In this document: one piece after another, positions 9,711 to 35,827 of the stretch
How the letters are laid out: each line of letters starts with the position of its first letter
How positions within the stretch are numbered: the first letter of the stretch is position 1
NCBI RefSeq assembly: GCF_017094485.1
Contig: NZ_CP064786.1
Location: 2,732,788-2,796,787, forward strand
Direction of reading: 5' to 3'
Length of the DNA: 64,000 nucleotides
Source: Natranaeroarchaeum sulfidigenes
Lineage (GTDB): Archaea > Halobacteriota > Halobacteria > Halobacteriales > Natronoarchaeaceae
The notes under the pieces: generated by a model
Told to the model about the DNA's origin: nothing
The model's input: only the letters and a program-made list of their open reading frames with translations
The model's database searches: none
Translations under genes and position numbers: made by a program

Positions 9711-10407
9711 ACAGACCTTCGAGGCAACGTTGTACGCGCCGCTCTTCTACTCCAGTTCTGAGGGGCGAGCGATACGAACACAGCCGACGCTGTCGTCGAC
9801 AGCACTCATGCACGCCCTCGGATACCGGTATTTCGAACTCGAAAAGCGGTATGCCGAGTTCGGCGAGGACGCAACCACTGCGGACTACTCACACCTCAGA
9901 GAACAACCGTTCTTTGTCACCGATATGCGTCCCATCGCTGTCGAAACCGACGAACGCACGTTCCGGAGCACCGACTATCGCTCGGAACGACACTTCACGA
10001 CAAACGATACGGACATCGCAAATCAGGTCTCAGGATCGAAATCAGTTCCCGAAATCCTTGAAAAATCAGGGGCAGCATACCAGACGATTCGAAACTACCT
10101 CGGGATCACTCCAGGATCAACGTTCGAGTTCACCGTCTGGAGCGAAACGGAGCTTCCGGAACACCCCTTTTTCCGAATGGGGATCAAGCAGACCGGCGAG
10201 TTCCGCGCAAAACCGGCTGAACTGGACACGCTGGTACTCAACAAATACCTGCTCTCAGAAGTGTACGAGCTACCCGATGAGCTGCTGACCGATCTAGTCG
10301 AACACAGCCAGAGGTTCAACCGGGGCAACGATCCACGGTTACAGCATTTCGTTGGTGTCGAGCCCGAGTTCGTCCGTGACCAGATAGTTCCAGAGGTGCT
10401 CGGATGA
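9703..10407 (+). CDS. csc1: Csc1/Cas5d, type I-D crRNA 5'-handle subunit
   Basis: Small RAMP protein expected to cap the crRNA 5' handle in the effector complex, about 234 residues. The N-terminus (MIEQTFEATLYAPLFYSSSEG) is typical for Csc1. A GTG at 9697 is an alternative start; ATG 9703 fits family members better and leaves an 8-base overlap with csc2. The stop overlaps the cas3 start by 4 bases. Assignment is mainly by position and the RAMP-like beginning, because Csc1 proteins are poorly conserved. Confidence 0.8.
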   Translation: MIEQTFEATLYAPLFYSSSEGRAIRTQPTLSSTALMHALGYRYFELEKRYAEFGEDATTADYSHLREQPFFVTDMRPIAVETDERTFRSTDYRSERHFTTNDTDIANQVSGSKSVPEILEKSGAAYQTIRNYLGITPGSTFEFTVWSETELPEHPFFRMGIKQTGEFRAKPAELDTLVLNKYLLSEVYELPDELLTDLVEHSQRFNRGNDPRLQHFVGVEPEFVRDQIVPEVLG

Positions 10408-12302
10408 CCGAATTCGAGGTTGCTGGCGCGAGCCTTGCGACAGAGACACCGGAACCGGCACTCGAAGATCGTGGCTTCGAATACGCCCGTGCGTTCCAGA
10501 ACCGCGTTATCGAGTGGATTCACGATGGCACCGACCCCGTATCGGTTGTTCGTGCGCCCACTGGCGGGGGAAAGACCGCGACCTTCTACGAACTCATCGA
10601 CTCACGGGATATGACACTTCTCGTCTATCCCACGAACGCGCTTCTCCGGCAGCAACGAGAGCGATTTGAGGACGACGATGTCGACGTCGCTGTCCTCAAC
10701 GCAAACACGTTAGAAGGTCATGGACACGAACGGACGGAACAACTGATCGGCTTCGTCAACTCGTATGCAGCCGATTACGATGCAATTCTAACGAATCCTG
10801 ACATCCTGCAGGCAGCGATCCAGGATATGTACGTCGGGAGTGACCCGATGCGGTTTTTTAATTGGTTCGATGCGATTGTCTACGACGAGTTCCATTTTTA
10901 TGACGCTCTGTCAGCAAGCGGTCTGCTGTTGCAGATCAAGATTATTGCCGAACGACAATCCGATCCAAAGATACTGCTTGCGTCTGCAACGCCGAACGAT
11001 GAGTTCGTCGAGTTCCTTCGTGAACAAGTCGGCTTGACTGTCCGCGATATCGGTGCCGACTACGACCCGGATGGCGATCAGTTCCGACACCGAATGGTTG
11101 TCCGTCGACACGAAGACAGGAAGATATTCGACTATCGAGACGAGATTGCCGCAGAACTCGAAGCAAAAGTTGAGGCAGTCGACGACTACGACGATCCGGA
11201 GGTTGTCCTCGTATTTAATAGTGCGAAGGACAGCAACGACTTCCATGATTTCCTCTACCACGAGTATCCGACTGTTTTCGAACACACCGCCAAAGACAAC
11301 GGGTTCGATACGAACGACGAGGGTGCCGACCTCAACGATACGGAGTTCTACATCCTCAATACCACCAGCAAGGGAGAAGTTGGACTCGATTACGATGTGA
11401 CGACGTTGTATATGGAAAAACCCTTCACCGCGAGTGCGTTTCTTCAGCGATTTGGGCGAGCAGGTCGTCAGTCGGAAGCGACCGTCGACATATACGGCCT
11501 CGGACAGGGACCGTGGGGCGAGAATGTTGATTTCCCCTCCTTCGCCGAACAGATCTACGAAGGACTGGACTCGACGCAGATGAATCAAAAACGGTTAGCT
11601 GACCTCGTCGGGTTCCGAGCGGCCTACGCCATTATGAAACGTGAGGAAGACTCATACGGGTTTAATCAGGAGCTGCGTGAGGACTTCAAGTCAAACATCG
11701 ACAGATACGAAAAATGGTACAGGTTTATTCGGGCCGTTAACGCCGAATGTGGTGAAATAAAAGACGGATTCGGTCCGGGAAAGTACTCACAGAACGATCC
11801 CGAAGCGAAACTCTTGGAGTTCACCAGAGAATGCTTCAAAACGTTTCAGGGGCTTCGTGGTCGGTCGCTGTCGGCGTCGATCAAATATCCACGAGGAGAC
11901 CGACTCGGTGTTACGACCTACGATCTCTCGACAACACTCCGTAACTACGATATCGTTGACGTTGGTGACGACGATATTCTGGTTTTGGGGCCAGCGGACG
12001 ATACTATTCTATCGACCGTGACGGCACGTCTTCCAGCATATGAGACAGAGCCGACCCAGTACGATCAGACGAGAGGAGAGATAGAAGAACAGCTCCAGAC
12101 GAAGATACACCGACATATCGATCAAGCCGAATTAAACAACGAGTTTGAGGTGTCGACAGAGCTGTTACATCGGCTGTTCCGCATCATCGATATCGTTGAT
12201 GCAATCATTCCCTCTCGCATTACAACCTCCGAGTATGACATCGAAATCGATGACAACTCCGGTGGCCCGCCAGCAATCAATGTCCAGCCGCGTCAAATAT
12301 GA
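10404..12302 (+). CDS. cas3: Cas3' superfamily 2 helicase without HD domain
   Basis: ATP-dependent helicase recruited to unwind target DNA, 632 residues. Walker A is APTGGGKT (residues 51-58). The DExH motif appears as YDEFHFYD (about residue 160), motif III as SATPN and motif VI as QRFGRAGRQ (about residue 348). No HD nuclease domain is present at either end. This matches type I-D, where the HD motif is on Cas10d. Both ends overlap the neighbouring genes by 4 bases. Confidence 0.9.
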   Translation: MTEFEVAGASLATETPEPALEDRGFEYARAFQNRVIEWIHDGTDPVSVVRAPTGGGKTATFYELIDSRDMTLLVYPTNALLRQQRERFEDDDVDVAVLNANTLEGHGHERTEQLIGFVNSYAADYDAILTNPDILQAAIQDMYVGSDPMRFFNWFDAIVYDEFHFYDALSASGLLLQIKIIAERQSDPKILLASATPNDEFVEFLREQVGLTVRDIGADYDPDGDQFRHRMVVRRHEDRKIFDYRDEIAAELEAKVEAVDDYDDPEVVLVFNSAKDSNDFHDFLYHEYPTVFEHTAKDNGFDTNDEGADLNDTEFYILNTTSKGEVGLDYDVTTLYMEKPFTASAFLQRFGRAGRQSEATVDIYGLGQGPWGENVDFPSFAEQIYEGLDSTQMNQKRLADLVGFRAAYAIMKREEDSYGFNQELREDFKSNIDRYEKWYRFIRAVNAECGEIKDGFGPGKYSQNDPEAKLLEFTRECFKTFQGLRGRSLSASIKYPRGDRLGVTTYDLSTTLRNYDIVDVGDDDILVLGPADDTILSTVTARLPAYETEPTQYDQTRGEIEEQLQTKIHRHIDQAELNNEFEVSTELLHRLFRIIDIVDAIIPSRITTSEYDIEIDDNSGGPPAINVQPRQI

Positions 12303-12892
12303 CTGATAACTTGATCAATGTCGCTGATCTCAACCAGTTTTCATACTGTCCACGGCGGTACTGGTATCTCCATTTCTATGATACCCAGGGCAGAAACTAC
12401 GAGCGAATCGAGGGGAAAACAAAGCACGAAAACCAGGCAACCCGAGGCGATTGGGTCAACGAACTCTACCTCGAATCCGAAGAGCTTGGTCTCAAAGGAA
12501 AGATAGATATTCTCGATCTGGACGGTAATCAAGTCGTTCCGGTTGAACGAAAGCGAGCGGAGAGTGGAGACTACTACAAAAGTGATGAGATGCAGTTGGC
12601 GGGCTACTGTATGCTACTTGAAGATCATTTAGATCAGCCCGTTTGTCAAGGGGCGATCTACCTCTACGAAACTGACCAACGAATGCATATTCCGATAACG
12701 GAATCCCACCGGGAGGATGTCCACAAACAGATCGAAACAATGCAATCGATGTCCGTCGACTCCATCCCACCACTCACGGACAACCCAAAGAAGTGCGAAG
12801 CCTGCTCGGCGCGAGAGTACTGTATGCCGGAGGAAACTGCGATGCTCGAACCAGAGAAGGCACACGGAACAGGCTGGGAGGAGGAAATATGA
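12299..12892 (+). CDS. cas4: Cas4 RecB-like nuclease with iron-sulfur cysteines
   Basis: Nuclease that trims and orients new spacers before integration, 197 residues. The first Fe-S cysteine is in NQFSYCPRRYWYLHF, and the other three are near the C-terminus in CEACSAREYC. The RecB-type catalytic motifs are GKIDIL (Asp) and VPVERKR (Glu-x-Lys). The gene overlaps cas3 and cas1 by 4 bases each, giving the usual cas4-cas1-cas2 adaptation block. Confidence 0.92.
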   Translation: MTDNLINVADLNQFSYCPRRYWYLHFYDTQGRNYERIEGKTKHENQATRGDWVNELYLESEELGLKGKIDILDLDGNQVVPVERKRAESGDYYKSDEMQLAGYCMLLEDHLDQPVCQGAIYLYETDQRMHIPITESHREDVHKQIETMQSMSVDSIPPLTDNPKKCEACSAREYCMPEETAMLEPEKAHGTGWEEEI

Positions 12893-13884
12893 AAGCCACC
12901 GAAGGGATGTTCGATGAGTCAGTTGTCTACGTCACCCAACAGGGTACCCAAGTCGGAACCGAGGGCGGACGGATCACTGTCTGGGATGTCGATGGCGACG
13001 AGGGGGAACTCGCCTCTTTCCCGACTGAAAAGCTGGATACGATCAACGTCTTCGGCGGGGTGAACTTCTCGACGCCGTTTGTTGCCGAAGCCAATCGTCA
13101 CGGGATTATCCTGAACTATTTCACCCAAAACGGAAAGTACCGTGGGAGCTTCGTGCCCGAAAAGAACACCATCGCTGAGGTTCGCCGGGCCCAGTACGAT
13201 CTCGATACATCAGCCGAAGTCGATATCGCCGCATCGATGATCGCCGCCAAAATTCGCAATTCTCGGACACTCCTCTCCCGCAAGGGCGTTTACGGGACAG
13301 ATGTCCTCAAAGATCTCGGATTAAAGGCAACTACAGTAGCAACGAAAGACGATCTACGTGGCGTTGAAGGTGAAGCCAGCGAACGATACTTTAGCCGACT
13401 AGACGAGACGATCACCGATGGCTGGACATTCGAAAAGCGGACGAAACGACCACCGGAAGATCATATCAACTCGTTACTGTCACTGACCTACGTATTCATG
13501 AAAAACGAAGTTCTCAGCGCGTTGCGTCAGTTCAACCTCGATCCGTTTTTGGGTGTGTTGCACGCCGATCGACACGGTCGTCCCTCGCTTGCACTCGATT
13601 TACAGGAGGAGTTCAGGCCAATCTTCTGTGATGCGTTCGTTACTCGGCTTGTCAATCGGGGAGTCATCACCCACGACGAATTTACCAAAGACAACCATCT
13701 GGCGGACGAAGCATTCAAAACGTACTGCTCGAAGTTTGACGATTTCATGCAAGAGGAGTTCACCCATCCATACTTCGAATACACCGTCACGCGTCGGAAG
13801 GCCGTACGACAACAAGCGATCCTGTTGCGGAAAGCGATTACTGGTGAGCTAGACGAATATCACGCGCTGACGTTTTCAAAGTAA
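12889..13884 (+). CDS. cas1: Cas1 spacer-integration nuclease
   Basis: Integrase subunit that, with Cas2, inserts spacers at the leader end of the array. The start is the ATG at 12889 in the ATGA overlap with cas4, giving 331 residues, the usual size. An open frame continues further upstream but lies inside cas4. The C-terminal catalytic region is recognisable: LLSLTYVFMKNEVLSAL followed by GVLHADRHGRPSLALDL and EEFRP, supplying the conserved Glu, His and Asp metal ligands. It is followed after two bases by cas2. Confidence 0.93.
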   Translation: MKATEGMFDESVVYVTQQGTQVGTEGGRITVWDVDGDEGELASFPTEKLDTINVFGGVNFSTPFVAEANRHGIILNYFTQNGKYRGSFVPEKNTIAEVRRAQYDLDTSAEVDIAASMIAAKIRNSRTLLSRKGVYGTDVLKDLGLKATTVATKDDLRGVEGEASERYFSRLDETITDGWTFEKRTKRPPEDHINSLLSLTYVFMKNEVLSALRQFNLDPFLGVLHADRHGRPSLALDLQEEFRPIFCDAFVTRLVNRGVITHDEFTKDNHLADEAFKTYCSKFDDFMQEEFTHPYFEYTVTRRKAVRQQAILLRKAITGELDEYHALTFSK

Positions 13885-14274: not shown

Positions 14275-17200
14275 GTCGAGACATCCAGAAAACCCAGCGC
14301 GGGATTGAAACGTTTATCCGGCAGGCCTTCGAGGACTACGTTTCGAGGTCGAGACATCCAGAAAACCCAGCGCGGGATTGAAACTGCTCTCCATGAGCGA
14401 CATGGAGCGACCGGACCCAGGTCGAGACATCCAGAAAACCCAGCGCGGGATTGAAACTCGGATAGTCCTCGATCTCGATAACGTCCCCGCCCGTCGAGAC
14501 ATCCAGAAAACCCAGCGCGGGATTGAAACACGACGAGAGCCCCGAGGAACAGGACGCACAACCAGTCGAGACATCCAGAAAACCCAGCGCGGGATTGAAA
14601 CGACACGTCACGCCAGGCCGCAGCTCGAAGACAGTGTCGAGACATCCAGAAAACCCAGCGCGGGATTGAAACCCAGACGAGCTGCGAGAGCGTGCTCACT
14701 GGCTTACTGTCGAGACATCCAGAAAACCCAGCGCGGGATTGAAACACGATGAGGACGAAGACGCCGGGAACGGATCAAACAGTCGAGACATCCAGAAAAC
14801 CCAGCGCGGGATTGAAACTTCTCGATGGTGCGATCTTCTACGACGCTTCGGAGGTCGAGACATCCAGAAAACCCAGCGCGGGATTGAAACCTGTTGCTGT
14901 TCTTGGTCGGTGGGCTATTCAGCCAAGTCGAGACATCCAGAAAACCCAGCGCGGGATTGAAACTGCGGTCGGTCCTCGCTCATCGCATCGACTTCTCGGG
15001 TCGAGACATCCAGAAAACCCAGCGCGGGATTGAAACCGGGGATCGGTTATGCGGTGATTGATGCCTACGGTCGAGACATCCAGAAAACCCAGCGCGGGAT
15101 TGAAACGCGTCGAAAAAACTACCAGCGTCTCGAATCTCGCGGTCGAGACATCCAGAAAACCCAGCGCGGGATTGAAACCTCGCCTGATCGAGCCGAGGAG
15201 TATGTCGCGACGTGGTCGAGACATCCAGAAAACCCAGCGCGGGATTGAAACACGGTGAGACTGATTGTACCGTATCCGAGTGTATTGGTCGAGACATCCA
15301 GAAAACCCAGCGCGGGATTGAAACCCGTCGTCACTCATGCATGAACCTCCGGTTCGGTGGTCGAGACATCCAGAAAACCCAGCGCGGGATTGAAACAACA
15401 CCGCCCGATCGCCGCCGTTGCGGTTCACGTGTCGAGACATCCAGAAAACCCAGCGCGGGATTGAAACTACCGGGCCTATCACCGGAAGCTAGAGAAGAAC
15501 GGTCGAGACATCCAGAAAACCCAGCGCGGGATTGAAACGAGTATGCACCGATGCACATGCGAGGATAACCTACGGTCGAGACATCCAGAAAACCCAGCGC
15601 GGGATTGAAACACGACTGGGCCGACCGCGTCCAGAGACTCCGCACACAGTCGAGACATCCAGAAAACCCAGCGCGGGATTGAAACGTCATCAGTGTGGCG
15701 GCTATCGCCCCTGGTGCGATTGTCGAGACATCCAGAAAACCCAGCGCGGGATTGAAACCTGGTCTGGTTCCGGCTCGGGGACAAGCTCGACGAGTCGAGA
15801 CATCCAGAAAACCCAGCGCGGGATTGAAACCCGCCCATGTGGCGAGCGAGTCCGACCGATCCGCGGGTCGAGACATCCAGAAAACCCAGCGCGGGATTGA
15901 AACTCCCGTGCTCACAAGCACGATCGCGGCGAGTGCCGCGGTCGAGACATCCAGAAAACCCAGCGCGGGATTGAAACCTCGATCGCAGGACAGAGCCGAT
16001 CAGGGCCGGTTGTGTCGAGACATCCAGAAAACCCAGCGCGGGATTGAAACTGCATGGTGGCGGCAAGGGTCCGGGCCAGCCGCTTCGTCGAGACATCCAG
16101 AAAACCCAGCGCGGGATTGAAACCGTCATCGTTCTCGGCAGCACAAACGTAGCCGATACGTCGAGACATCCAGAAAACCCAGCGCGGGATTGAAACTTCT
16201 CCGGGCATGTTCTCGTCATGCTCGGTCGAGACGTCGAGACATCCAGAAAACCCAGCGCGGGATTGAAACTAAGGCGTCTACAACGTCGTCGTGCGAGCCT
16301 TCGGGGGTCGAGACATCCAGAAAACCCAGCGCGGGATTGAAACACGAACTGTTAGCGCACTTGTCTGAAGCTATGCAGTGTCGAGACATCCAGAAAACCC
16401 AGCGCGGGATTGAAACAGTTGAAAGGTGTCAAAATCGCTCGTGCAGATACAGGTCGAGACATCCAGAAAACCCAGCGCGGGATTGAAACAATATTTCGGT
16501 GAGGATTTCAGTCAGTATCCTCATTGTCGAGACATCCAGAAAACCCAGCGCGGGATTGAAACTAACTCATGCTCCTTTACCCCTCGCGTAAGCGTCAACG
16601 TCGAGACATCCAGAAAACCCAGCGCGGGATTGAAACACATTTCGACGAATCCCCCCGTGGCGGTCGATCTGTCGAGACATCCAGAAAACCCAGCGCGGGA
16701 TTGAAACGCGCGGTCTTGGCCGTCACAGTCGCTGTATCGGGTCGAGACATCCAGAAAACCCAGCGCGGGATTGAAACAGATCGTCACGCAGGGCGACAAC
16801 AACGCCTATCAGGGTCGAGACATCCAGAAAACCCAGCGCGGGATTGAAACAAGTCCAGTTATCAATCCTGATATCTCGCGCTTTTATGTCGAGACATCCA
16901 GAAAACCCAGCGCGGGATTGAAACCCGTCCTCGATGTCGGCTGCGTAGATACTCCCAGATTGGTCGAGACATCCAGAAAACCCAGCGCGGGATTGAAACG
17001 CCTGTATGCGCGTTTACGACGTGATAAGCATCATGTCGAGACATCCAGAAAACCCAGCGCGGGATTGAAACTCAATTACGACGGCAGTGAACCGGTGGGG
17101 TACGTCATGTCGAGACATCCAGAAAACCCAGCGCGGGATTGAAACACGGTGCCGGTTACTGGGTCGCCAGCATATAACGTCGAGACATCCAGAAAACCCA

Positions 17201-20200
17201 GCGCGGGATTGAAACGACAATCGTAGAGCCGCCAGACAGACGCTCATGCACGTCGAGACATCCAGAAAACCCAGCGCGGGATTGAAACACGAACTGTTAG
17301 CGCACTTGTCCGAAGCTATGCAGGTCGAGACATCCAGAAAACCCAGCGCGGGATTGAAACAGCGAGTGATGAAAGACCGAGCAGCCGATATCAACGGTCG
17401 AGACATCCAGAAAACCCAGCGCGGGATTGAAACAAGAATGAGTTACAACAGTTGGTACGACGACAGCGGTCGAGACATCCAGAAAACCCAGCGCGGGATT
17501 GAAACTAGGTCCTCCGGTAGCTCGTCTTCGATAATATCAGGTCGAGACATCCAGAAAACCCAGCGCGGGATTGAAACAGTCCGAGTTGACGGAAGTACAG
17601 CGCCATCTGGCCCGTCGAGACATCCAGAAAACCCAGCGCGGGATTGAAACTAGCTTCTGGTGCTCCGCGTCGGGAGTCGCCTGGTGCGTCGAGACATCCA
17701 GAAAACCCAGCGCGGGATTGAAACTCGTCGTCCGAGACGAGTAGGGGGTCGGCGGCCAGGTCGAGACATCCAGAAAACCCAGCGCGGGATTGAAACTCGG
17801 CCTGATCGTGATCGTTGGCGGCACGGTTTTCGGTCGAGACATCCAGAAAACCCAGCGCGGGATTGAAACCGTCACTTGCCATAGTTGTCAACTCCGAGCG
17901 GTTGTCGAGACATCCAGAAAACCCAGCGCGGGATTGAAACATGTCGACCACTGTTCCTCAAATGTGTCTGGATCGTCGAGACATCCAGAAAACCCAGCGC
18001 GGGATTGAAACTCGCTGACTTGGAAGAAGATGTCAACGACTCCGAGCGTCGAGACATCCAGAAAACCCAGCGCGGGATTGAAACCGGTATGGATCGTCTC
18101 CCGATAGCGTACTCTCGGGTTGTCGAGACATCCAGAAAACCCAGCGCGGGATTGAAACTAGCCGTATCCCGCTCGTCAAGGATCTGTTCGCCTAGTCGAG
18201 ACATCCAGAAAACCCAGCGCGGGATTGAAACAGCAATGAATCAGACGACGGTCTTTTGGTCGTCGGGTCGAGACATCCAGAAAACCCAGCGCGGGATTGA
18301 AACCCGGACGGCAGCAGTGCCTTGCGACATATCAGGGAAGTCGAGACATCCAGAAAACCCAGCGCGGGATTGAAACGACTCGGACCTCGCGGACGTTATC
18401 CGTGTGCAGGTCGGTCGAGACATCCAGAAAACCCAGCGCGGGATTGAAACTAGAAGTCAATGCCGTCTATCGGTTTTAGGTCACAGTCGAGACATCCAGA
18501 AAACCCAGCGCGGGATTGAAACGATTCCATCAGCCGATTCAAGAACGCCTGTTGCAGGGTCGAGACATCCAGAAAACCCAGCGCGGGATTGAAACCGCTC
18601 GGTCGGCGTCAGTTGCATCTACACTGATATAGTCGAGACATCCAGAAAACCCAGCGCGGGATTGAAACTGCTCTCCGGCGATATCGAGCAGCGGCGTCAC
18701 TGCCGGGTCGAGACATCCAGAAAACCCAGCGCGGGATTGAAACATTGCATCTGCGAAATTCGTCACGAAGTCCGTCCCGGTCGAGACATCCAGAAAACCC
18801 AGCGCGGGATTGAAACTCGGCGAGCCACAACCTACGTTTAGCTATACAGTCGAGACATCCAGAAAACCCAGCGCGGGATTGAAACCAGAACTTCCTTGGA
18901 CAGGACGGTTCAGATAGCGGTCTGTCGAGACATCCAGAAAACCCAGCGCGGGATTGAAACAGGGACAGAGAGATTCTGGTCCCGATTATTACGAGATAGT
19001 CGAGACATCCAGAAAACCCAGCGCGGGATTGAAACACTTTGCCTCATGGGTGGCTAACGACCTGCCGAGACGTCGAGACATCCAGAAAACCCAGCGCGGG
19101 ATTGAAACAGCATGTCTCGCTGGAAAGCGGTCAGATCTGTGAGGTCGAGACATCCAGAAAACCCAGCGCGGGATTGAAACATTCGGCGGCGGTATCACGA
19201 CCCACAGCGCTGGCAGTCGAGACATCCAGAAAACCCAGCGCGGGATTGAAACTACGTTCGGGACACGCGCGGGCGGATCGCGCAACTGGTCGAGACATCC
19301 AGAAAACCCAGCGCGGGATTGAAACGATGAGATGTTCACGCAGCTGGAAAGAGAGGCAGGTCGAGATATCCAGAAAACCCAGCGCGGGATTGAAACGCGA
19401 CGACGCGGCCGCTGCTGGGGCCCGATCGGGTCGAGACATCCAGAAAACCCAGCGCGGGATTGAAACTCGTAGACAGCGTACGAGTCGCCGTCCTCGTGTA
19501 GGTCGAGACATCCAGAAAACCCAGCGCGGGATTGAAACCGGGATTCGAGGTTGACGACGGTCCAATTGGCGTGTCGAGACATCCAGAAAACCCAGCGCGG
19601 GATTGAAACGCCGGTGAATCGCCACGACGTGAAAAGCGCCGCGGCGTCGAGACATCCAGAAAACCCAGCGCGGGATTGAAACTCACTGCTGGCGACCGAC
19701 GACGGCGGCTTTCGAGGTCGAGACATCCAGAAAACCCAGCGCGGGATTGAAACACCAGGCCGCTCGATTCGACCGACCAGTATTCCTCGGTCGAGACATC
19801 CAGAAAACCCAGCGCGGGATTGAAACAGGACATTGAGATCAAGGATTACGACGACCCTGTTGTCGAGACATCCAGAAAACCCAGCGCGGGATTGAAACTG
19901 ATCGCGTTGGTCGGGGTGTTGATCGTCGGCACTAGTCGAGACATCCAGAAAACCCAGCGCGGGATTGAAACCGCGAGGCCGTCCAGGAGGTCGATCGGGA
20001 TGAGTGGTCGAGACATCCAGAAAACCCAGCGCGGGATTGAAACATGGCCGAGCAGGCTGCGAAAGTTGGTTGGATATAGTCGAGACATCCAGAAAACCCA
20101 GCGCGGGATTGAAACATGGCCGAGCAGGCTGCGAAAGTTGGTTGGATATAGTCGAGACATCCAGAAAACCCAGCGCGGGATTGAAACGTGACGGCAGTGC

Positions 20201-20404
20201 CCTGTTCCCTGGCGCAGGCGGCTCGTCGAGACAACCAGAAAACCCAGAACGGAATTGAAACACGTCCTGGCCTTCCTGGTACTGTACCCCGGCGTGTCGA
20301 GACAACCAGAAAACCCAGAGCGGGATTGAAACCCGTAGCCCCAGGATCGAACGGGATCTATGCCGCCATCGAGACGACTAGAAGATCCGTCGCGGAATTG
20401 AAAC
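14275..20404 (+). CRISPR. CRISPR array 2: 85 repeats, 84 spacers, transcribed rightward
   Basis: I count 82 well-conserved copies of a 37-base repeat (14275-14311 to 20151-20187), starting GTCGAGACATCCAGAAAACC and ending GCGCGGGATTGAAAC. Three progressively degenerate copies follow at 20225-20261, 20296-20332 and 20368-20404. A single internal variant (GATATCC) is at 19360. Spacers are 33-37 bases. Spacer 20044-20078 is repeated exactly at 20116-20150. Spacers 16344-16379 and 17289-17323 are the same sequence apart from one base and end length. The repeat differs from that of array 1 at 7 of 37 positions. Orientation is given by the leader and by the degenerate repeats at the far right. Confidence 0.98.
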
Positions 20405-20665
20405 GAGACGACTGATACGGCGATAACAACGAGAGATAATCAGTATCTTCAACGGTTCAATCGACGGATTCTGCATAGTTTCGACCCGCAAGATGGTCGC
20501 GCCGTTAGTCGTCTAGGCGTGCTCTCGCCAGCGTCCGACTTCGAGCTAGTCTACGTTTGCGAGAAACTGAATGGTGTGCCACATCAGCTCGTTGTAGACC
20601 AAGACATCGCGCCGATATTTCGGCAACTCTCAGCAACCGGGTGTTTCACTCGAAGCCATATCTAA
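20405..20665 (+). pseudogene. Open frame without start codon after array 2, possible gene remnant
   Basis: From the end of the last CRISPR repeat to a TAA at 20663-20665 one frame is open for about 87 codons, but it has no ATG. The only candidate in-frame start is a GTG near 20519. The reading (YLQRFNRRILHSFDPQDG..., then SPASDFELVYVCEKLNGVPH) has the composition of a real protein C-terminus. I do not recognise the family. It may be the tail of a gene cut off when this end of the array moved or decayed. The rest of the gap to 20724 holds nothing I can identify. Confidence 0.35.
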
Positions 20666-20723: not shown

Positions 20724-21686
20724 TCAGTCAGATTCTTCCGCAGCAGCCGCCGGTTGATCAGGTATTGAGGTATCCGGTGAACGCTCCACTCTCAGGTGAG
20801 TTATCAGGGTTTCGAGTTGGGAGATCATCTCAGAGAGTTCCGATTTACCAACAGTAACCTCACCGGCGTTTGTAGTCACTTCGTCCTCTCTCTGTTCTGA
20901 TTTCCCTTCCTGAGCGGTTTCAGAGTCTGTCAGAAACGATGTCAAGGTCTGAAATTTCGCACCGACTGATTGTTTGTCGAGGTCTTGGTCAGATGAATCA
21001 TCACCAAGTGGAAGTCTGTACGCGAGCGCGCGCTTCTGCATGTAGTGAGTGGTGCGTTCGTGGACACCCATGTCAGCCGCGATTTTCGAACGGTCAATCC
21101 CGTAGTTCAGGAGGCGACGGACGAGTTCATCTTCGAACCGTTTGATGAGTTTGCCCGTATCGTTCGGAAATTCACCGCGTGCTGTCCGATTGATTTGATG
21201 AGGTAGCCCCCACTCGCCGGTATCGGCACTTTGGTCCACCAAGGGATGAGTGAGTCGGTCGATTCGTCGATGGTGACCCATGAGATGCCAGAGTCGCTCC
21301 CGGGTCGCCATATTCGACTTATTGTCGTCGATATCTGCCATGATCTCCTGTACTGAGGCCGGACCGCGGCGTGAGAGAGTGCTGATGATCTCGAAATCGT
21401 ACGTGAAGAGTTTTAGCTCCTCTTGTACCGTGTCCGTCTGGAACGGAAGATCATCAGGCATCCGGGTCGTTATGTAATGATGACACACCTCACACAGAGT
21501 CGTCCCGTTGTCGGGATGGTGATACTCAATTCCATCAGGATCATCCTCGATATGGTGTGCTTCGAGTCGCGCGGTACCACCCTTCTCCACCCACTCTTCG
21601 CCACATATTCGGCAGCGGTAGCCGTCGCCGTCAAACACTTCTAACCGGACATTGGTTGGAAATGATTCGTTTGTATTCTTCATCAT
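20724..21686 (-). CDS. HNH endonuclease-domain protein with HTH-like C-terminal part
   Basis: Protein of 320 residues. The N-terminus (about residues 12-75) is an HNH nuclease with zinc-binding cysteines: YRCRICGEEW, then EAHHIEDD and TTLCEVCHHY. A middle winged-helix-like segment (LFTYDFEIISTLSRRGPAS) follows, then an arrangement resembling a helix-turn-helix (YGIDRSKIAADMGVHERTTH). The C-terminal 90 residues are polar and low-complexity. HNH proteins of this kind are common on haloarchaeal viruses and integrated elements, where they act in packaging, homing or restriction; which applies here is unknown. Transcribed toward array 2. Confidence 0.75.
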   Translation of the reverse strand: MMKNTNESFPTNVRLEVFDGDGYRCRICGEEWVEKGGTARLEAHHIEDDPDGIEYHHPDNGTTLCEVCHHYITTRMPDDLPFQTDTVQEELKLFTYDFEIISTLSRRGPASVQEIMADIDDNKSNMATRERLWHLMGHHRRIDRLTHPLVDQSADTGEWGLPHQINRTARGEFPNDTGKLIKRFEDELVRRLLNYGIDRSKIAADMGVHERTTHYMQKRALAYRLPLGDDSSDQDLDKQSVGAKFQTLTSFLTDSETAQEGKSEQREDEVTTNAGEVTVGKSELSEMISQLETLITHLRVERSPDTSIPDQPAAAAEESD

Positions 21687-21961
21687 GTTTTTTGCTTTTT
21701 GACTTGAGATCCGTTCCCTTGTTACTAGAGGGGAGCACGTGCCGGTTCAGCCTACCACCACCCCCACTTTCCATGGAGCGATTAGATAGGTCCCAATCCC
21801 TGCCACCACTCAGGGAGAAACCCATATCGAACCGGCCGTGCAAATCTACTTTCTATTTCCAAGTACAAATAACTTTGTAATTCATAGTGGAATAGAATAT
21901 TAGTGTATAGCTTAATTAAGAGCAGAACACATTTTTGCTCATGCTACGAGTCACAGATAGG

Positions 21962-22198
21962 ATGGTCAACGAGAGTTACGAACCCTCACCCGCCGAAGAG
22001 GAGATTATGGATCTCCTGCAAGAAGGCCGCAATGCTGGGGAACCCTGGGGATACACCACGCCAGCACACGTGCGAGAGCATATCGGAATCGAAGAGGGCA
22101 ACGAGAGTTTTCACCTACGACAACTCACCAGTGCGGGGTGGATTGAGAAGGTCTCCCGGGGATTTTATCGTTTCGTTGAGGATCCACGAGAAGTATAG
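21962..22198 (+). CDS. Small winged-helix protein, PhiH1-repressor-like
   Basis: DNA-binding protein of 78 residues. The sequence EEIMDLLQEGRNAGEPWG, then TPAHVREHIG, ESFHLRQLTSAGWIEKVSRG and FYRFVEDP is a single winged helix as found in repressors of haloarchaeal viruses such as PhiH1 and in many integrated elements. The frame is open to an upstream ATG at 21935. I prefer ATG 21962 because the family begins near this point and a TATA-like sequence lies around 21905-21918. It is divergent from the HNH gene and may control it. Confidence 0.65.
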   Translation: MVNESYEPSPAEEEIMDLLQEGRNAGEPWGYTTPAHVREHIGIEEGNESFHLRQLTSAGWIEKVSRGFYRFVEDPREV

Positions 22199-22571: not shown

Positions 22572-22902
22572 CGACCGAGAGTGAAGCCGTATCTCATACT
22601 GACGATTTACATCGAGAGTTGCGTGCAGCAATTGAGGCGCTTGAAGCGGCTGACGAAGCACTCTGACGGGTAGACCTGTGAGAGCGTGGTTCTGTGCTCA
22701 GCATGACTGAGTGAGGAGGTGCTGGCACGACTCCGCTCTTCTTGGTTCGGTTTGGGACACGAAAGTGCGCGCTGAAAGGCCAACCTGCCTAAAAGCGACC
22801 TGTTCTTTCAATGGGCCGAGCTGCGTTGAGACGGCCAGATCGTCTCCGAGCACCAACTTTACAGCGAAGGTTACATACAGTAGAGTTGTTATTTACTGAC
22901 TG

Positions 22903-23769
22903 ATGCAGGCTCGGTATTCGGAACGTTCGGTGTTGCTGTATATTGGGACCGAGATCGAGCGAATGGGTGAGGCGCTTGACGCTGCAGAGGACACAATGGT
23001 TGATGGGATCCGGTTGGGCGGTGATGTCCTCCGGTCTGGGTATGATTACGATTCGATTGATAGTGTCGCCGGTGCGTGCTTTCATCTCGCGTGTACTCGG
23101 CAGGACGAACCGATTTCGCTCCCGGATATCGCGGATCAGGCTCGGAAGTCACAGAAGAACATCCAACATCTGAGCGCGAAGTTGATGTCTGAATTGGAGA
23201 TTCAGCCGACACCGGTTGAAGCGGATACGTACCTCGATGACGGTATTGAGGAGTTCGGATTCACAGAGGATCAGGCGGCGGAATGTTTCGAGTTGCTTGA
23301 ACGTGGGAAAGACCGCAATCTCCACAGTGGTCTCGCACCGACGACTGTCGCCGGAGCGATCCTGTATGCCGTCGCCAAGAAACACGGGCTTGATGTCCGT
23401 CAACGTGAAATCTCCGAGTTCGTGAACAAGACCGATGTTTCGATCCGGAATAACTACAAATCGTTCCTGAAGTTGGCTGACGATGTCCCGGTGGACGTGC
23501 TTCCACCCCAGACGCTTGATGAGGCAATTGCGGCGCTTCAGACTACTTTTTCCGAGCACCCGGCCGTGTATGCTGACGATGCACGCGAGATATCGACCGG
23601 CGCGGATGTTGGAGACAGCGCCAGTGATGCAGGGATTGTCGGTGGCGCGTACCTCAGTGTCGCCCAAGCACACGGAGAAGAGTTGACCGCTGGCGACCTC
23701 AGTACCGAACTCGGTGTCGGGAGTCAAACAATCGCTAAATACAACGAGATGTTCACCGATGACGACTGA
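22903..23769 (+). CDS. TFB-like cyclin-repeat protein without zinc ribbon
   Basis: Relative of archaeal transcription factor B, 288 residues. Instead of the usual zinc ribbon plus two cyclin folds, it starts directly with a cyclin fold and appears to contain three. The repeat signature occurs as SVAGACFHLACTRQ (about 54-67), TTVAGAILYAVAKKHG (about 142-157) and GIVGGAYLSVAQAHG (about 242-256). Each is followed by a helix-turn-helix-like segment (LPDIADQARKSQKNI, QREISEFVNKTDVSI, AGDLSTELGVGSQTI). Without a ribbon it should not recruit RNA polymerase in the normal way; it could act as a DNA-binding regulator. The stop overlaps the start of the HNH gene downstream by 11 bases, so the two are probably translated together. 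Confidence 0.75.
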   Translation: MQARYSERSVLLYIGTEIERMGEALDAAEDTMVDGIRLGGDVLRSGYDYDSIDSVAGACFHLACTRQDEPISLPDIADQARKSQKNIQHLSAKLMSELEIQPTPVEADTYLDDGIEEFGFTEDQAAECFELLERGKDRNLHSGLAPTTVAGAILYAVAKKHGLDVRQREISEFVNKTDVSIRNNYKSFLKLADDVPVDVLPPQTLDEAIAALQTTFSEHPAVYADDAREISTGADVGDSASDAGIVGGAYLSVAQAHGEELTAGDLSTELGVGSQTIAKYNEMFTDDD

Positions 23770-25000
23770 AGAACAGCAGGTCCCGGGACAGCGGTGTCAA
23801 GAGTGGCGTGTGGCGTACCGCGACGGGAAAACCCCGTACGAACTCTCGGTCGAAGAAGAGCTGCCGCGTCGGAAGGTCCACGACCATCTGACTGGACAGT
23901 GTTCACACGATGGCGAGGAACCTCCGATATCACGTGGTCGAACCCACGGCGTAACTGCTCCCGAATGTCGTGGTATCAGAGACCGGTACGCCGCAGGAGA
24001 GGCTATCGAAGCGCTCCAAGCTTCGACTGGGCGTCGCTGGCAGACACTTGTCCGGCACCTTACTGGAGCGTGTTCCCACGAGACCGCTGTCGAAGCGCCG
24101 ACAGTCGCAAAGGAGGAGATTCTCAGGCGGGATCGAGTGACGGCTGAGGAGTGTGCGCAGCTCCGTCGTGGAGTTCGAGATGCTGATAGCGTTATGGCCT
24201 ACGCTGATACTGTCGAGCACGAGTATCAGGCTGTGCTCGCGCACGTCAACGGTGAGTGTACCCACGAGATCGATGCGCCGCCACGAGAACCGACTGATCG
24301 GAGTCAGGATATCTCAACGACGGAGTGTCAGACCATCCGGGAGACGTATCGCTCCAGTCCAGATACCGAAGTCACCGATATTGCTGAAGAGTACGGCTGC
24401 TCACCGACGACTATCGAGCGCCACGTCACGTTCCGATGTTCGCACCCGCCTGTGGACGCGTTGGTCACCGATGTCGAGGCAGTTCAGGATATTCTGGCAT
24501 CTGGCGTGGAAGTGGACGATGGATTGAGTACACTCAGTTCTGCGGAGATTGTCCGGCTAGAGAGTGCGAAGAACGCTGACCGACAGGAACCGGCCCGGGA
24601 CTTGGCGACGCCCGACCCGGAGCGCGTCGAAACGACACGGAGTCGGGTGGTCCGTAACACCGACCTCACGCACGATATGAAGCGGATGTACGACCACACC
24701 TGCCAAGTCTGCGGTGCCTCCCGGCAAGGTCCCGACGAGGATCCGTATGCCGAAGCGCACCATATCCGGCCGCTCGGCCGTCCGCATGATGGGCCTGACG
24801 AGCCCGAGAATATCCTCGTCCTCTGCCCCAATCATCACGCTGATTTCGATTACGGTCGGCTCACCGTTGATCCAGAGACGCACCGTGTGACGCACACCTA
24901 CGAAGACGCCGTTGACGGAACCCAGCTATATATCGCAGACCCCCACGAACTCAGCGACGACCATCTTACGTACCATAACAGAGTCATCGCTGGCGAGTAA
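23759..25000 (+). CDS. HNH endonuclease with four Cys/His HTH-like repeats
   Basis: Protein of 413 residues; ATG 23759 lies inside the end of the TFB-like gene. The N-terminal half has four repeats of about 60 residues, each with a Cys, about 30 residues of helix-turn-helix character, and an ending of the form H-x5-C-x-H: HDHLTGQCSH, VRHLTGACSH, LAHVNGECTH and ERHVTFRCSH. These look like four zinc-stabilised HTH modules. A polar linker leads to a C-terminal HNH nuclease (about residues 310-380): CQVCGAS, EAHHIRPLG and NILVLCPNHHADFD. The architecture suggests sequence-specific DNA binding followed by cutting. Coupling to the TFB-like gene suggests a joint function. Confidence 0.8.
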   Translation: MTTEEQQVPGQRCQEWRVAYRDGKTPYELSVEEELPRRKVHDHLTGQCSHDGEEPPISRGRTHGVTAPECRGIRDRYAAGEAIEALQASTGRRWQTLVRHLTGACSHETAVEAPTVAKEEILRRDRVTAEECAQLRRGVRDADSVMAYADTVEHEYQAVLAHVNGECTHEIDAPPREPTDRSQDISTTECQTIRETYRSSPDTEVTDIAEEYGCSPTTIERHVTFRCSHPPVDALVTDVEAVQDILASGVEVDDGLSTLSSAEIVRLESAKNADRQEPARDLATPDPERVETTRSRVVRNTDLTHDMKRMYDHTCQVCGASRQGPDEDPYAEAHHIRPLGRPHDGPDEPENILVLCPNHHADFDYGRLTVDPETHRVTHTYEDAVDGTQLYIADPHELSDDHLTYHNRVIAGE

Positions 25001-25234: not shown

Positions 25235-25852
25235 TCACACCTTTAGCAAGTGGTCGTAGACCCTCTCAGTCGTCTGAATACTTCGGTGACGAAGCCGATT
25301 GCGGACATCGTACAGCGTGTTTCCGTCTTCTTCGTTCATCATTCGATAAGCAACGCCGTGCCGTAGCGCGTGCGGTGTAACGTCGCTTGGATCGCCTCGA
25401 CTCCCATCGAGTTTGTAGGGTCGAATTCCTGCCTCCTCAGCGATCTTGTGAAGCATATTCCGCACGCCTTGTTCGCTGATGCGTTCTGAGGAGCGAGAGG
25501 GGAAGAGGGATGGCGTGTCTTTCCATCGGTTGGTGAGATACGCAGAAAGTAGCCGTGTCGTGTCGTCAGCGAGTTCGAGGGTCACTGGCGGTGGCGAGTT
25601 CTGATTCGGGTAATCCTTCTGAATGCCGGTGGGTAGGTAGAGCTCTGAGTTGTTGTTTCGAAGCAATTCAACATCGAGTTGGACGAGTTCGCCGACCCGG
25701 AGCCCAGTATCGTACATCGTCGTGACAATTGCTTCATTTCGTTGTTGGAGATAGTCGACACCAGTTGCGTAGCACGCTGACCGGAGTGCTTCGGCTTGGT
25801 CTGGTGTCACCCACACTTTCGCTCGAACTTGGGAATTTGCGTATTCGCTCAT
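25235..25852 (-). CDS. Tyrosine recombinase, catalytic domain only
   Basis: Recombinase of 205 residues consisting of the catalytic domain and a short N-terminal arm. The full set of active residues is visible: Arg in YDTGLRVGEL, the HALRH box, His in RNRLRHRS, and Tyr in TERVYDHLL. The SAM-like arm-binding domain found in the other two recombinases of this window is missing. It could be a truncated integrase or a naturally short recombinase such as those used for inversion or resolution. The 230 bases between it and the HNH gene show no gene. Confidence 0.85.
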   Translation of the reverse strand: MSEYANSQVRAKVWVTPDQAEALRSACYATGVDYLQQRNEAIVTTMYDTGLRVGELVQLDVELLRNNNSELYLPTGIQKDYPNQNSPPPVTLELADDTTRLLSAYLTNRWKDTPSLFPSRSSERISEQGVRNMLHKIAEEAGIRPYKLDGSRGDPSDVTPHALRHGVAYRMMNEEDGNTLYDVRNRLRHRSIQTTERVYDHLLKV

Positions 25853-32089: not shown

Positions 32090-35000
32090 TTACCTCTCTT
32101 GGCTGGGAACGTCCCTTGGCAAAAAGGCTCTCAGAACCTTGCGCTCGGCGGCTTTGAGGTGTTCGTGGACCGTCGAATGTGAGATATCAAACAGCTCGGC
32201 AATCTCTTGGCCGTTGATGCCTTTCGGCTGGTCGTAATAGCCCTCGGAGTATGCGGTTTGAAGCACCTCTCGCTGTCGATTTGTAAGTATATGGGTAGGT
32301 GCGAAAGATTCTATATCGCTCTCTTCTCGGGTTCTTTTGGCGAGGAGCGAAGCGCCTTCGAAGCGAGCGGTGAGTGCGTCAGCGATGACGGAGGCGGTGG
32401 AACGATCAGCGACGGTGAACGTAATGAGTTCTTCCTCTGACCCGGAGAGAACGTTCGACACTCGGACCTCTCTGGATACAATTTCCTCGAACAACATCTC
32501 GGTGGGGGCGCGGCGAGACACGTCGAGTGATACTTCAGCTTTAAAAACTGTCTCAGCCTCATTGTGGTTGATAATTGTGTCGTAAAGACTGGGGATTTGT
32601 GAAAGATATGTCTCAAACTCAGGCTGGGAGGCCCCACTAACAACCATTTGCAGGCGTCTTGTCGAGCTGTCGACGGTGATAACATTCCGGACTTGTATCG
32701 AAGTATCACTCGGAAGAGATGGGAAAAAAGGCCGAGAGTCAGTAAACGCAAGATCAATTTCAACTGATTCCGCTGTCAGGCGTGCAACGTTGTCAATGTC
32801 CAGTTGTCTAAGCCGATGACCGATGATCCGGCAGAGGGAACGAATAGCCGTGGTGGTGCGCGTGTCGAACCCGTCAACGTCTGTAGATGCAACTTCAACA
32901 ACACCGTAAATTACTCCCTGATCAATGATCGGGATGGAGAGCACGGAGCGGTATCCATACGCAAGCATAGCCGTCGCCCACTTTCTGTCTCGTTCTGCTA
33001 GTGTTCGCTCGACATATACGGTAGATCGGGTTGTCGCGGCTTCGAGAGCGGGTCGCATTTCCACATCGGAACCAGTTTCGAGTTCACTTACCGGGCCAGT
33101 ATCATCGGTAGCCGCTCGAGGAATGACGGCATCCATTTGTGGCTTGAAATCACCGACCCAGCCGTATCGCCAGTTTGTGTCAATAAACTCAACGAGCAAT
33201 TGATCTAATTCGCTCCGGGTTTCTGCCTCAAGCGCCTGTTCAACCGTGTCGGCAAGAGTCTCTAGTTGGGTTTGCACGGAATTGAGGTCCGTTTTAACAC
33301 TGTCGAGAGTCGCACGGAGGTCTTCGACCGACTCCTGCTGTTTAGACCGCTCAATGGCAGTTGCGAGAACGTTCCCAACCGTAGTTAGAAAGTCAGGAAT
33401 TTGCTCGGAATCATCATCGATGTTGGACACGACGAGTAAGCCAGCGGATCCGATCGGTACCGCATACCCACGCTCGTCGGAGGTGTCGTCAAGTCGCTGG
33501 TCGTAACCAGTTGTAAACGCCCGCCAATAGGTCTGGTCATCGGTAGTCACTGTTTCTGGGAATTGATTGCCTTCGGTCGGTATTTTCGCCATTTGGTGAA
33601 GGACGCCATCAGCTTCGTCCCACGAGTATGTAGCGACGACAATGTCGTCAAGCCCCCTAAGGACGGTTTCAATGCCTGCTTCGTGAATTTCGGCTGATGT
33701 CCGGCAGTGGCGTAGCTCGCTTTCGAGCTCATTAATCGAGTTTAATCGCTGGAGGTGATCCAGAGCCTTCTGTGTTCGTTGGAGTTCGGTAATATCTGTT
33801 GACGATCCAAGCACTGCAGGCCCATCCACCCCAATCGGTTCAAATGGGACTTTTATTGTCTCGAGAATCCGCTCGTTGCCGTCGGCATCTGTGAGCGTCT
33901 CACCGTATCGATATACCGGTTCGCCAGTTTCAATGACTGTCCGGTCGTCTTGAGTGAACACTTCAACATCGGCATTGTTTGGTGCGAAATCCGCGTCGGT
34001 CTTCCCTTCGAGCTCTGAGGGAGTTGTACCGTAAGCCTTTGCGGTGGCTTCGTTCGCAAAAATAAACTCCCCTGCTTCATTTTTTGCGAAAATAAACTGT
34101 GGGACTGTATCGATAACCTGCCGGAGTTGTTCGCGTTCGGCCTCGACCTTCTTACGTGCTTGTTTCAATTCTCTTTGACGCTCGACAAGTGTGAGCGCGG
34201 TTCGGACATGAGAAACGGTGATCTCGAGCAGTTTGCGTTCGTTGGCGGAAATAGCATCGGTCTTCGTCGAGCCGATAATGAACACACCGCGGTTACCGAC
34301 CGGGATGTGTAGCTCGGAACCTATCGGTGTATCTTGATTATACACATCGTCGATATTCGTGAGGTCGGGATAGTATCGCACCTCGTTGGCCTCGAATGCC
34401 CGCCATACAAGTCCCTCTCCTCGCCTGAAGGATGGAAGATTATCCAGTAGTTCCCGAGACTGAGAGGACACAGAAGCGGGGAGTAGCTTGTCTTCCGATC
34501 CATTGTACCGGAGGTATCCGGCCAAGGGTCGATCAATCTTTTCAGCTATCAACTCGATAGTCTGATTGATTATAGTATCGCGGTTCTCTGCTAACATGAG
34601 GGAGTGAGCGGTCTCCCTGACCGATTTGAGGCGTCGCTCGAACTGTTTGCGATCACTGATATCTCGGTTGACACAGATGATCCCCCCATCGGCAAGTTGC
34701 GTTAACGAAATATAGTGCTCAACTGGTTCTCCATCTTGCCGAACTCCCATCAACTCACCCTCCCAAGCCCCAGTTTCTTCGAGTTCCTCGAATGGACCCG
34801 CCTCTATCTCTGCCTGTGTCTGTTCGTCGTACAGGGTCCGCCAGCTCTCACCAAGAAGCTCATCCGGGTCGTAGCCAAAGATTTCCGCGTGAGCGTCATT
34901 CATATAGGTGTATCTCTCATCCGGGTCGAGTATTGAAATCCCAGTTAGTGACGCCTCAATTGCTTTGGATCTACGGCGGAGTGCTGCTTGTTCGTTGACG

Positions 35001-35827
35001 CGATCGGATACATCGAGAAATGCCCCGACTACGTATACCTGGCCATTGATTTCGATAGTTGTATCGATAATATCTATGGGCACCTCCTCGCCGTTGTCGT
35101 CCTCGACATAGCGTGGGCCGTTGTACTGAACAAAAGAATCGATACCGGCGGCATCGACAGAGTGCTGGAAGCCCTCCTGGTAATCGATATCGGTATTATC
35201 TGGATGTAACTCCACTTGGTTTGCTCCAAGGAGTGCTTCTCGAGATCGACCTAGTAGCTCGCACGCACGGTCGTTGACAGCAACGATGGTTCCTGTCTCA
35301 CCCTCAGCAACCAACAGCGGGAGTGGGGCTTCATAGAACAACCGCTCGGAAAACGGTCCCGTCGCTACCGGCGTCAACTCCGTTGTAGCAGTATTGGTAG
35401 TGTCGGAAATAGTGTCAATAGCCCGTTGGGCCGTTGGGAGTGAAGCTTGGAGCGTTGCTATAATCTGTTTTTCCGGCGTCTCGGAATGGATGTATGTGAC
35501 ATTTGGGTGGGACTGAATCTCGTCCGGGTCATGCGTGTCGTCAATATCAACGACGAACAGATGCACATGAGGTGGTTTAGTCGGCATTTCGTCAGCATAT
35601 TTGGACCAGAACCGTGAACTCGCACAGACGACGGCAGCTACTGGTTTGATATCGAGTTGTTGATCTAGGAAAATCACTTCCTCGGCATCGGAGCCGTCTA
35701 CAGACTCGATAGAAACGGCTGAAAAGACCGTGTCAAACGCCGGGCGAAGTACCTCGACCGCATCCGCACTAGTAGAGCCAATAGCCAGTACTCGCTGGAT
35801 AGCAGAGTCCAATGTGTCATTACTCAT
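32090..35827 (-). CDS. Giant PAS/GAF sensor with Bat-type HTH output
   Basis: Transcriptional regulator of 1245 residues related to the bacterio-opsin activator (Bat) family. After an N-terminal receiver-like domain (about 1-140) come PAS domains (LPLLVAEGETGTIVAVNDRA, about 160; LTGISILDPDERYTYMNDAH, about 290; VPQFIFAKNEAGEFIFANEA, about 570). GAF-like domains occur around 410-545, 700-860 and 870-1020. A Bat-type domain and the C-terminal HTH (LTNRQREVLQTAYSEGYYD, then INGQEIAELFDISHSTVHEH) complete it. There is no kinase domain, so sensing and DNA binding are in one chain. The ligands (light, redox or oxygen are typical for the family) cannot be read from sequence. Its target genes are unknown; no neighbour is an obvious target. 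Confidence 0.88.
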   Translation of the reverse strand: MSNDTLDSAIQRVLAIGSTSADAVEVLRPAFDTVFSAVSIESVDGSDAEEVIFLDQQLDIKPVAAVVCASSRFWSKYADEMPTKPPHVHLFVVDIDDTHDPDEIQSHPNVTYIHSETPEKQIIATLQASLPTAQRAIDTISDTTNTATTELTPVATGPFSERLFYEAPLPLLVAEGETGTIVAVNDRACELLGRSREALLGANQVELHPDNTDIDYQEGFQHSVDAAGIDSFVQYNGPRYVEDDNGEEVPIDIIDTTIEINGQVYVVGAFLDVSDRVNEQAALRRRSKAIEASLTGISILDPDERYTYMNDAHAEIFGYDPDELLGESWRTLYDEQTQAEIEAGPFEELEETGAWEGELMGVRQDGEPVEHYISLTQLADGGIICVNRDISDRKQFERRLKSVRETAHSLMLAENRDTIINQTIELIAEKIDRPLAGYLRYNGSEDKLLPASVSSQSRELLDNLPSFRRGEGLVWRAFEANEVRYYPDLTNIDDVYNQDTPIGSELHIPVGNRGVFIIGSTKTDAISANERKLLEITVSHVRTALTLVERQRELKQARKKVEAEREQLRQVIDTVPQFIFAKNEAGEFIFANEATAKAYGTTPSELEGKTDADFAPNNADVEVFTQDDRTVIETGEPVYRYGETLTDADGNERILETIKVPFEPIGVDGPAVLGSSTDITELQRTQKALDHLQRLNSINELESELRHCRTSAEIHEAGIETVLRGLDDIVVATYSWDEADGVLHQMAKIPTEGNQFPETVTTDDQTYWRAFTTGYDQRLDDTSDERGYAVPIGSAGLLVVSNIDDDSEQIPDFLTTVGNVLATAIERSKQQESVEDLRATLDSVKTDLNSVQTQLETLADTVEQALEAETRSELDQLLVEFIDTNWRYGWVGDFKPQMDAVIPRAATDDTGPVSELETGSDVEMRPALEAATTRSTVYVERTLAERDRKWATAMLAYGYRSVLSIPIIDQGVIYGVVEVASTDVDGFDTRTTTAIRSLCRIIGHRLRQLDIDNVARLTAESVEIDLAFTDSRPFFPSLPSDTSIQVRNVITVDSSTRRLQMVVSGASQPEFETYLSQIPSLYDTIINHNEAETVFKAEVSLDVSRRAPTEMLFEEIVSREVRVSNVLSGSEEELITFTVADRSTASVIADALTARFEGASLLAKRTREESDIESFAPTHILTNRQREVLQTAYSEGYYDQPKGINGQEIAELFDISHSTVHEHLKAAERKVLRAFLPRDVPSQER

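Follow-up and report, generated by a model that had tools for sequence, protein, structure and literature searches.

Introduction

Modification-dependent (type IV) restriction enzymes of the TagI/ScoA3IV type combine an N-terminal DNA-reading part, the SRA domain, with a C-terminal HNH nuclease domain. HNH domains of the TagI type are those of restriction enzymes directed against foreign DNA that carries modifications, and the catalytic and other key residues of TagI are His229, Asn245, His254 and Asp258 (PMC6212794). Further HNH enzymes with an HTH-type reader, namely HHPV4I (wH-HNH) and HtuIII (PUA-wH-HNH), have been described from haloarchaea and their viruses (PMC10101028, PMC11037411); these enzymes read N6-methyladenine in GATC through a winged helix. 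On the side of transcription, canonical TFB touches the BRE with its second cyclin fold and recruits RNA polymerase through its ribbon (PMC7289017).

Here we characterize a locus that brings together relatives of these two groups. It consists of two overlapping genes on a 3.04-Mb haloarchaeal chromosome and was analyzed within a window of 64,000 nt, which is the whole stretch of DNA considered in this study. A preliminary description had proposed that this pairing of a TFIIB-like protein with a nuclease matches no known system. Comparison with the PADLOC defence library agrees with this view: no defined system was matched by the pair, and the matches obtained were weak and concerned single proteins (mREase_IV, 6.6e-5, for the nuclease; mad1, 0.005). 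A description of such a TFB-like/nuclease pair was not found in the open-licence papers searched, which is weak evidence of novelty. The pair is best read as an undescribed restriction-type defence cassette.

Results

Two overlapping genes behind a putative core promoter

Both genes lie on the same (+) strand. The first, at positions 22903–23769, encodes a TFB-like protein of 288 aa; the second starts with an ATG at 23759, ends with its stop codon at 25000 and encodes a nuclease of 413 aa. The genes thus overlap by 11 bp, exactly as stated earlier, and the same nuclease ATG is used in close relatives. Strong purifying selection acts on both of them (dN/dS 0.04–0.15), which together with their conservation across families rules out chance ORFs. 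Upstream of the two genes lies a putative BRE/TATA-like core promoter (GCGAAGGTTACATA, 22864–22877, + strand); an alignment of six loci from the same clade gives the putative promoter consensus CAGCGAAAGGTAAATA. As any haloarchaeal gene should have a BRE/TATA promoter, finding one here is no proof of autoregulation.

A TFB paralogue with three repeats and without a zinc ribbon

The first protein bears three cyclin/TFIIB-type repeats and is devoid of zinc ribbon, B-reader and B-linker. Pfam assigns it to TFIIB (E = 6.8e-14), and the profile of its family aligns with the archaeal TFB core in 1d3u and 1ais over residues 10–197 (E 2e-30), while the NCBIfam TFB model aligns only from model position 131. 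An in-frame stop is located one codon 5′ of the ATG; an upstream zinc ribbon that had escaped notice is therefore excluded, and a canonical TFB with a miscalled start is ruled out. The third repeat (residues 199–288; 23497–23766, +) was recognized by hhalign in a comparison of repeat 2 with repeat 3 (82% probability, E 1e-5), and a structure model of the protein places five helices at residues 205–286 (overall pLDDT 86). In a distant relative, G709, Pfam itself gives three TFIIB stretches (E 2e-28). The ribbonless fold with three cyclin repeats that had been read from the letters is thus supported by Pfam, hhalign, the helices of the model and the upstream stop.

The two main clades of TFB-like proteins are only ∼25% identical to each other. 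Conservation between them peaks in two stretches, helix 1 of repeat 1 and, in repeat 2, the BRE-recognition helix (residues 178–189; 23434–23469, +), in which V179, I181, R182, Y185 and L189 are invariant. In human TFIIB the corresponding V283 and R286 read the BRE. In trees the TFB-like proteins branch in clades separate from the canonical haloarchaeal TFBs. The protein is a TFB paralogue and not a TFB: it has the two-repeat core and the BRE-recognition helix in common with archaeal TFB (1d3u, 1ais), but it carries no zinc ribbon, reader or linker, has gained a third repeat and comes with a dedicated nuclease partner. Judged by homology, it would bind the TBP–TATA–BRE assembly; since the BRE-contacting fold is retained and the polymerase-recruiting ribbon is gone, the complex that it would form with TBP on promoters is expected to be a dead end.

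The same ribbonless three-repeat layout is seen in a family of solitary TFBs on Natrinema plasmids (L012:4824–5660, L013:4821–5765 and L019:4851–5669, annotated as ‘transcription initiation factor IIB family protein’), whose alignment with the TFB-like family spans 259 columns and takes in the third repeat (E 1.7e-19); this architecture is therefore not unique to the protein studied here. In contrast to the latter, the Natrinema proteins have no adjoining nuclease and the BRE valine is replaced (TATLRNRR).

Four zinc-HTH units on a TagI-type HNH domain

The nuclease contains four C-x29/31-H-x4-C-x-H units that start at residues 13, 70, 132 and 190: unit 1 (C13 H43 C48 H50; 23795–23908), unit 2 (C70 H100 C105 H107; 23966–24079), unit 3 (C132 H162 C167 H169; 24152–24265) and unit 4 (C190 H222 C227 H229; 24326–24445), all on the + strand. 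In 20,000 composition shuffles of the protein never more than two C-H-C-H units arose, and all 16 zinc ligands are invariant in seven relatives. At the C-terminus follows an HNH domain (24659–24988, +; Pfam HNH_2, E = 4.4e-12); among solved structures, TagI comes closest to it (6ghs, E 2.2e-25 over ∼127 residues). Residues H335, N351, H360 and D364 are equivalent to His229, Asn245, His254 and Asp258 of TagI and were present in six of six full-length members aligned; TagI Asn259 is a tyrosine in this nuclease. Shuffles, invariant ligands and the HNH_2 match all uphold the initial view of a nuclease with four zinc-HTH-like repeats.

With the TagI/ScoA3IV enzymes the protein shares the HNH domain, including its catalytic and zinc residues, as well as the general plan of an N-terminal DNA-reading part followed by a C-terminal HNH. 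In contrast to these enzymes, four zinc-HTH units take the place of the SRA domain and an obligate partner gene is present. As Pfam detects no SRA domain and four zinc-HTH units are found instead, we do not file the nuclease as an SRA-HNH enzyme. This HNH domain also occurs in further haloarchaeal proteins, of which some carry an SRA domain (the Pfam matches are weak but consistent) and the N-terminal parts of the remaining ones look like EVE/PUA-type readers; in all proteins of these kinds that we examined, zinc repeats were absent. HHPV4I and HtuIII differ as well, since the HTH units here are zinc-bound, repeated four times and accompanied by a TFB-like gene. We regard the nuclease as a restriction-type HNH enzyme that uses a different DNA-reading array. 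The confidence of its structure model was too low for a structure search to be informative.

Single zinc-HTH finger matches in G021, G156, G159 and G683 turned out to be other proteins. One such unit also occurs in the haloarchaeal proteins L091:1096–1725, L104:8520–8996, L105:7653–8552 and L103:3561–3719; in the first of these, it appears by eye to be fused to an HNH-type nuclease. A protein of Halobacterium salinarum pKBTZ02_38 (L017:3840–5357) carries a TagI-type HNH after a long N-terminal region, which appears LAGLIDADG-like by eye and gave no Pfam match.

The pair recurs in haloarchaea and moves as one unit

We searched 394 haloarchaeal genomes with each protein separately and carried out further searches with the zinc-repeat alignment in single families and in a phylum sample. 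The multi-repeat nuclease was found at 11 loci (our own, G376, G770, G051, G348, G030, G671, G094, G049, G045 and G709), spread over six haloarchaeal families. At 11 of 11 a TFB-like gene lies directly upstream on the same strand, and these searches found no multi-repeat nuclease without this neighbour. We take G671 to be the Halarchaeum acidiphilum locus L085, as the same break is present in the nuclease. For G709 and G770 the search hit concerned only the nuclease, and the TFB-like neighbour was checked afterwards; both proteins of G770 are identical to those of G376, so that this locus does not count as independent evidence. G709 represents a third deep lineage (best identities ∼33% and ∼40%), in which the TFB-like gene, a 4-bp overlap and four zinc units are present. 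The overlap measures 11 bp in our locus, G376, G051 and Halarchaeum and 4 bp in G045; a gap of 6 bp separates the genes in G094 and G049.

The contig search with the zinc-repeat alignment gave a match only in Halarchaeum acidiphilum, and in the phylum-wide sample no member was detected beyond the host's order of haloarchaea. The pair was not found in the IMG/VR, phage or plasmid collections, and a virus block is ruled out by the lack of matches in IMG/VR and the phage collections. The preliminary description had suggested a gene-neighbourhood search across haloarchaea among its checks and had named two outcomes that would speak against its view, a pair that never recurs or one that lies within a characterised virus gene block; on both points the result is in its favour. 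In the trees of both genes the well-supported groups agree with each other and cut across host families, which indicates that the unit moves as one.

This pattern bears on the idea that the two genes are independent, one coding for a global regulator and the other for a restriction enzyme that works by itself, and share an operon merely by chance. Solitary ribbonless three-repeat TFBs do exist in Natrinema, and HNH enzymes of this type act alone in other species. However, the 11/11 pairing is kept over three lineages below ∼41% identity, the genes moved as one unit, and the multi-repeat nuclease was not found by itself; we therefore consider two independent genes improbable.

The overlapping genes and the consistent pairing would also suit a complex or a fixed stoichiometry, in which the TFB-like protein together with TBP binds promoter DNA and physically brings the nuclease, so that promoters of the invader are cut. 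The BRE helix is retained, and the third repeat could serve as contact surface. However, promoter signals are common to host and virus, so that self DNA would be cut too, and the nuclease already possesses four DNA-reading units of its own. We regard such guidance as rather unlikely; control of expression by the TFB paralogue fits the evidence at least as well.

Sharp borders and absence of shared flanks

In comparisons of the closer loci DNA similarity starts ∼40 bp before the TFB-like ATG, at the BRE/TATA-like core promoter, and in more distant ones near the ATG; it ends at the nuclease stop codon or within ∼20 bp of it. These sharp borders at both ends define the unit as a cassette without fixed neighbours. 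No gene besides the pair is common to all compared loci, and no recombinase, terminal or flanking repeat or insertion site common to the copies was found, which speaks against a homing or transposon module. A short tyrosine recombinase of 205 aa (25235–25852, − strand) adjoins the pair in the window; a 93% identical copy is present at only one other locus, G094, on the opposite side of a distantly related pair.

A selfish element, in which the nuclease spreads the cassette and the TFB-like protein times its expression, could account for the patchy distribution, the transfer between families and the very compact unit. Yet an insertion site, terminal repeats or a recombinase in common are missing, the HNH domain is nearest to restriction enzymes, and a type I-D CRISPR-Cas system as well as other defence genes lie nearby. 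Such an element appears most improbable. The preliminary description had left the choice between a mobile-element module and an anti-invader system: the former is not supported, as no recombinase or flanking repeat travels along, and the latter is the better proposal, since modification-dependent restriction enzymes have the same type of HNH domain.

Defence-rich surroundings and decayed loci

The accessory-DNA setting proposed for the pair was found again, and the locus is rich in defence genes as well. In the window, a type I-D-like CRISPR-Cas operon with matches to Csc2, Csc1, Cas3′, Cas4 and Cas1d (5468–13884) is followed by a long array of ∼66 repeats (∼15500–20405). In a plain tally of neighbours, defence genes were located near most pair loci: an AspBHI-type enzyme in G376, CoiA and HSDR_N in G051, KAP/PifA and HerA in G045, a PbeC-like ATPase in Halarchaeum and, directly upstream of the pair, a DrmC-like PLD protein in G709. 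Among the annotated neighbours of the other pair loci no cas genes were found, and the lack of a neighbour common to all compared loci rules out that the pair is a part of the adjacent type I-D system.

Some further features of the window were noted. The repeats at the end of the array (20225–20405) are degenerate and some spacers are duplicated, for example those at 16307 and 17252. A different HNH protein with HTH-like parts is encoded at 20724–21686 (−) and has relatives of 36–41% identity near the pair in G051, G094 and Halarchaeum; it may simply be a member of an abundant haloarchaeal family. A small winged-helix protein at 21935–22198 (+) matches AbiEi_4 (E 1.4e-5) and has no obvious toxin partner. 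At 32090–35827 (−) a 1245-aa multi-PAS sensor is encoded whose C-terminal end is HTH-like.

Three loci are decayed: in Halarchaeum the nuclease is interrupted by a stop codon, G348 has lost the HNH domain, and in G030 both genes are broken. The nuclease is thus lost in three of three cases, and no locus with an intact nuclease beside a broken TFB-like gene was found. With n = 3 this pattern only hints that the nuclease needs its TFB-like partner. It would fit a toxin–antitoxin or suicide device, in which the TFB-like protein inhibits the nuclease directly and host DNA is cut once this protein is lost or transcription is hijacked. The order of the genes, regulator first and dangerous gene second with an overlap, points in the same direction, as does the lack of a DNA methylase travelling with the pair. 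However, TagI-type HNH domains are those of restriction enzymes directed against foreign modified DNA (PMC6212794), and although addiction modules are frequent on plasmids, the pair was not found on those searched. We hold this explanation to be quite unlikely.

Discussion

The reading that we favour, tentatively and as somewhat short of probable, is a horizontally moving, self-contained restriction-type defence cassette in which control of the nuclease falls to the TFB paralogue, in the simplest case via the cassette's own promoter. The second protein would be the effector: its four zinc-HTH DNA-reading units, standing in place of the SRA or other sensing domain of related enzymes, would deliver the TagI-type HNH domain to DNA. 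The first protein would act as the controller, having kept the TBP/BRE-binding core and lost ribbon, reader and linker, the parts for polymerase recruitment and start. Most likely it would join TBP at BRE/TATA promoters, chiefly that of the cassette itself, in a dead-end complex and so keep nuclease levels low in the manner of controller proteins in restriction-modification systems. Once triggered, the nuclease would cut invader DNA and so protect the cell. The sequences themselves show the pairing, its recurrence, the borders and the anatomy of the two proteins; cutting, protection, autorepression and the trigger are inferred.

The comparison with controller (C) proteins concerns only the way the system may work. 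In both cases a small DNA-binding regulator gene is located directly upstream of a restriction-type nuclease. C proteins, however, are not homologous to the general-transcription-factor paralogue found here, this cassette has no methylase, and its regulation is a proposal. The lack of a methylase poses a difficulty for this reading, as the cell's own DNA would be safe only if the nuclease requires modified DNA or is tightly controlled.

A more far-reaching possibility is a new form of archaeal immunity, in which a polymerase-blind TFB duplicate senses promoter DNA, or whether it is occupied, and thereby licenses the zinc-HTH/HNH nuclease or directs it against invader genes. We consider this unlikely, though conceivable.

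None of the open-licence papers searched describes a general transcription factor that serves a restriction-type nuclease as its dedicated partner, and for a restriction HNH domain a zinc-HTH array is an unusual DNA reader. As some haloarchaea are genetically tractable, control of the nuclease gene and guidance of the nuclease to promoters could be separated by ordinary experiments. If guidance applies, these archaea would possess an immunity that reads the promoter machinery; if control applies, they would have recruited a basal transcription factor to keep a dangerous enzyme in check.
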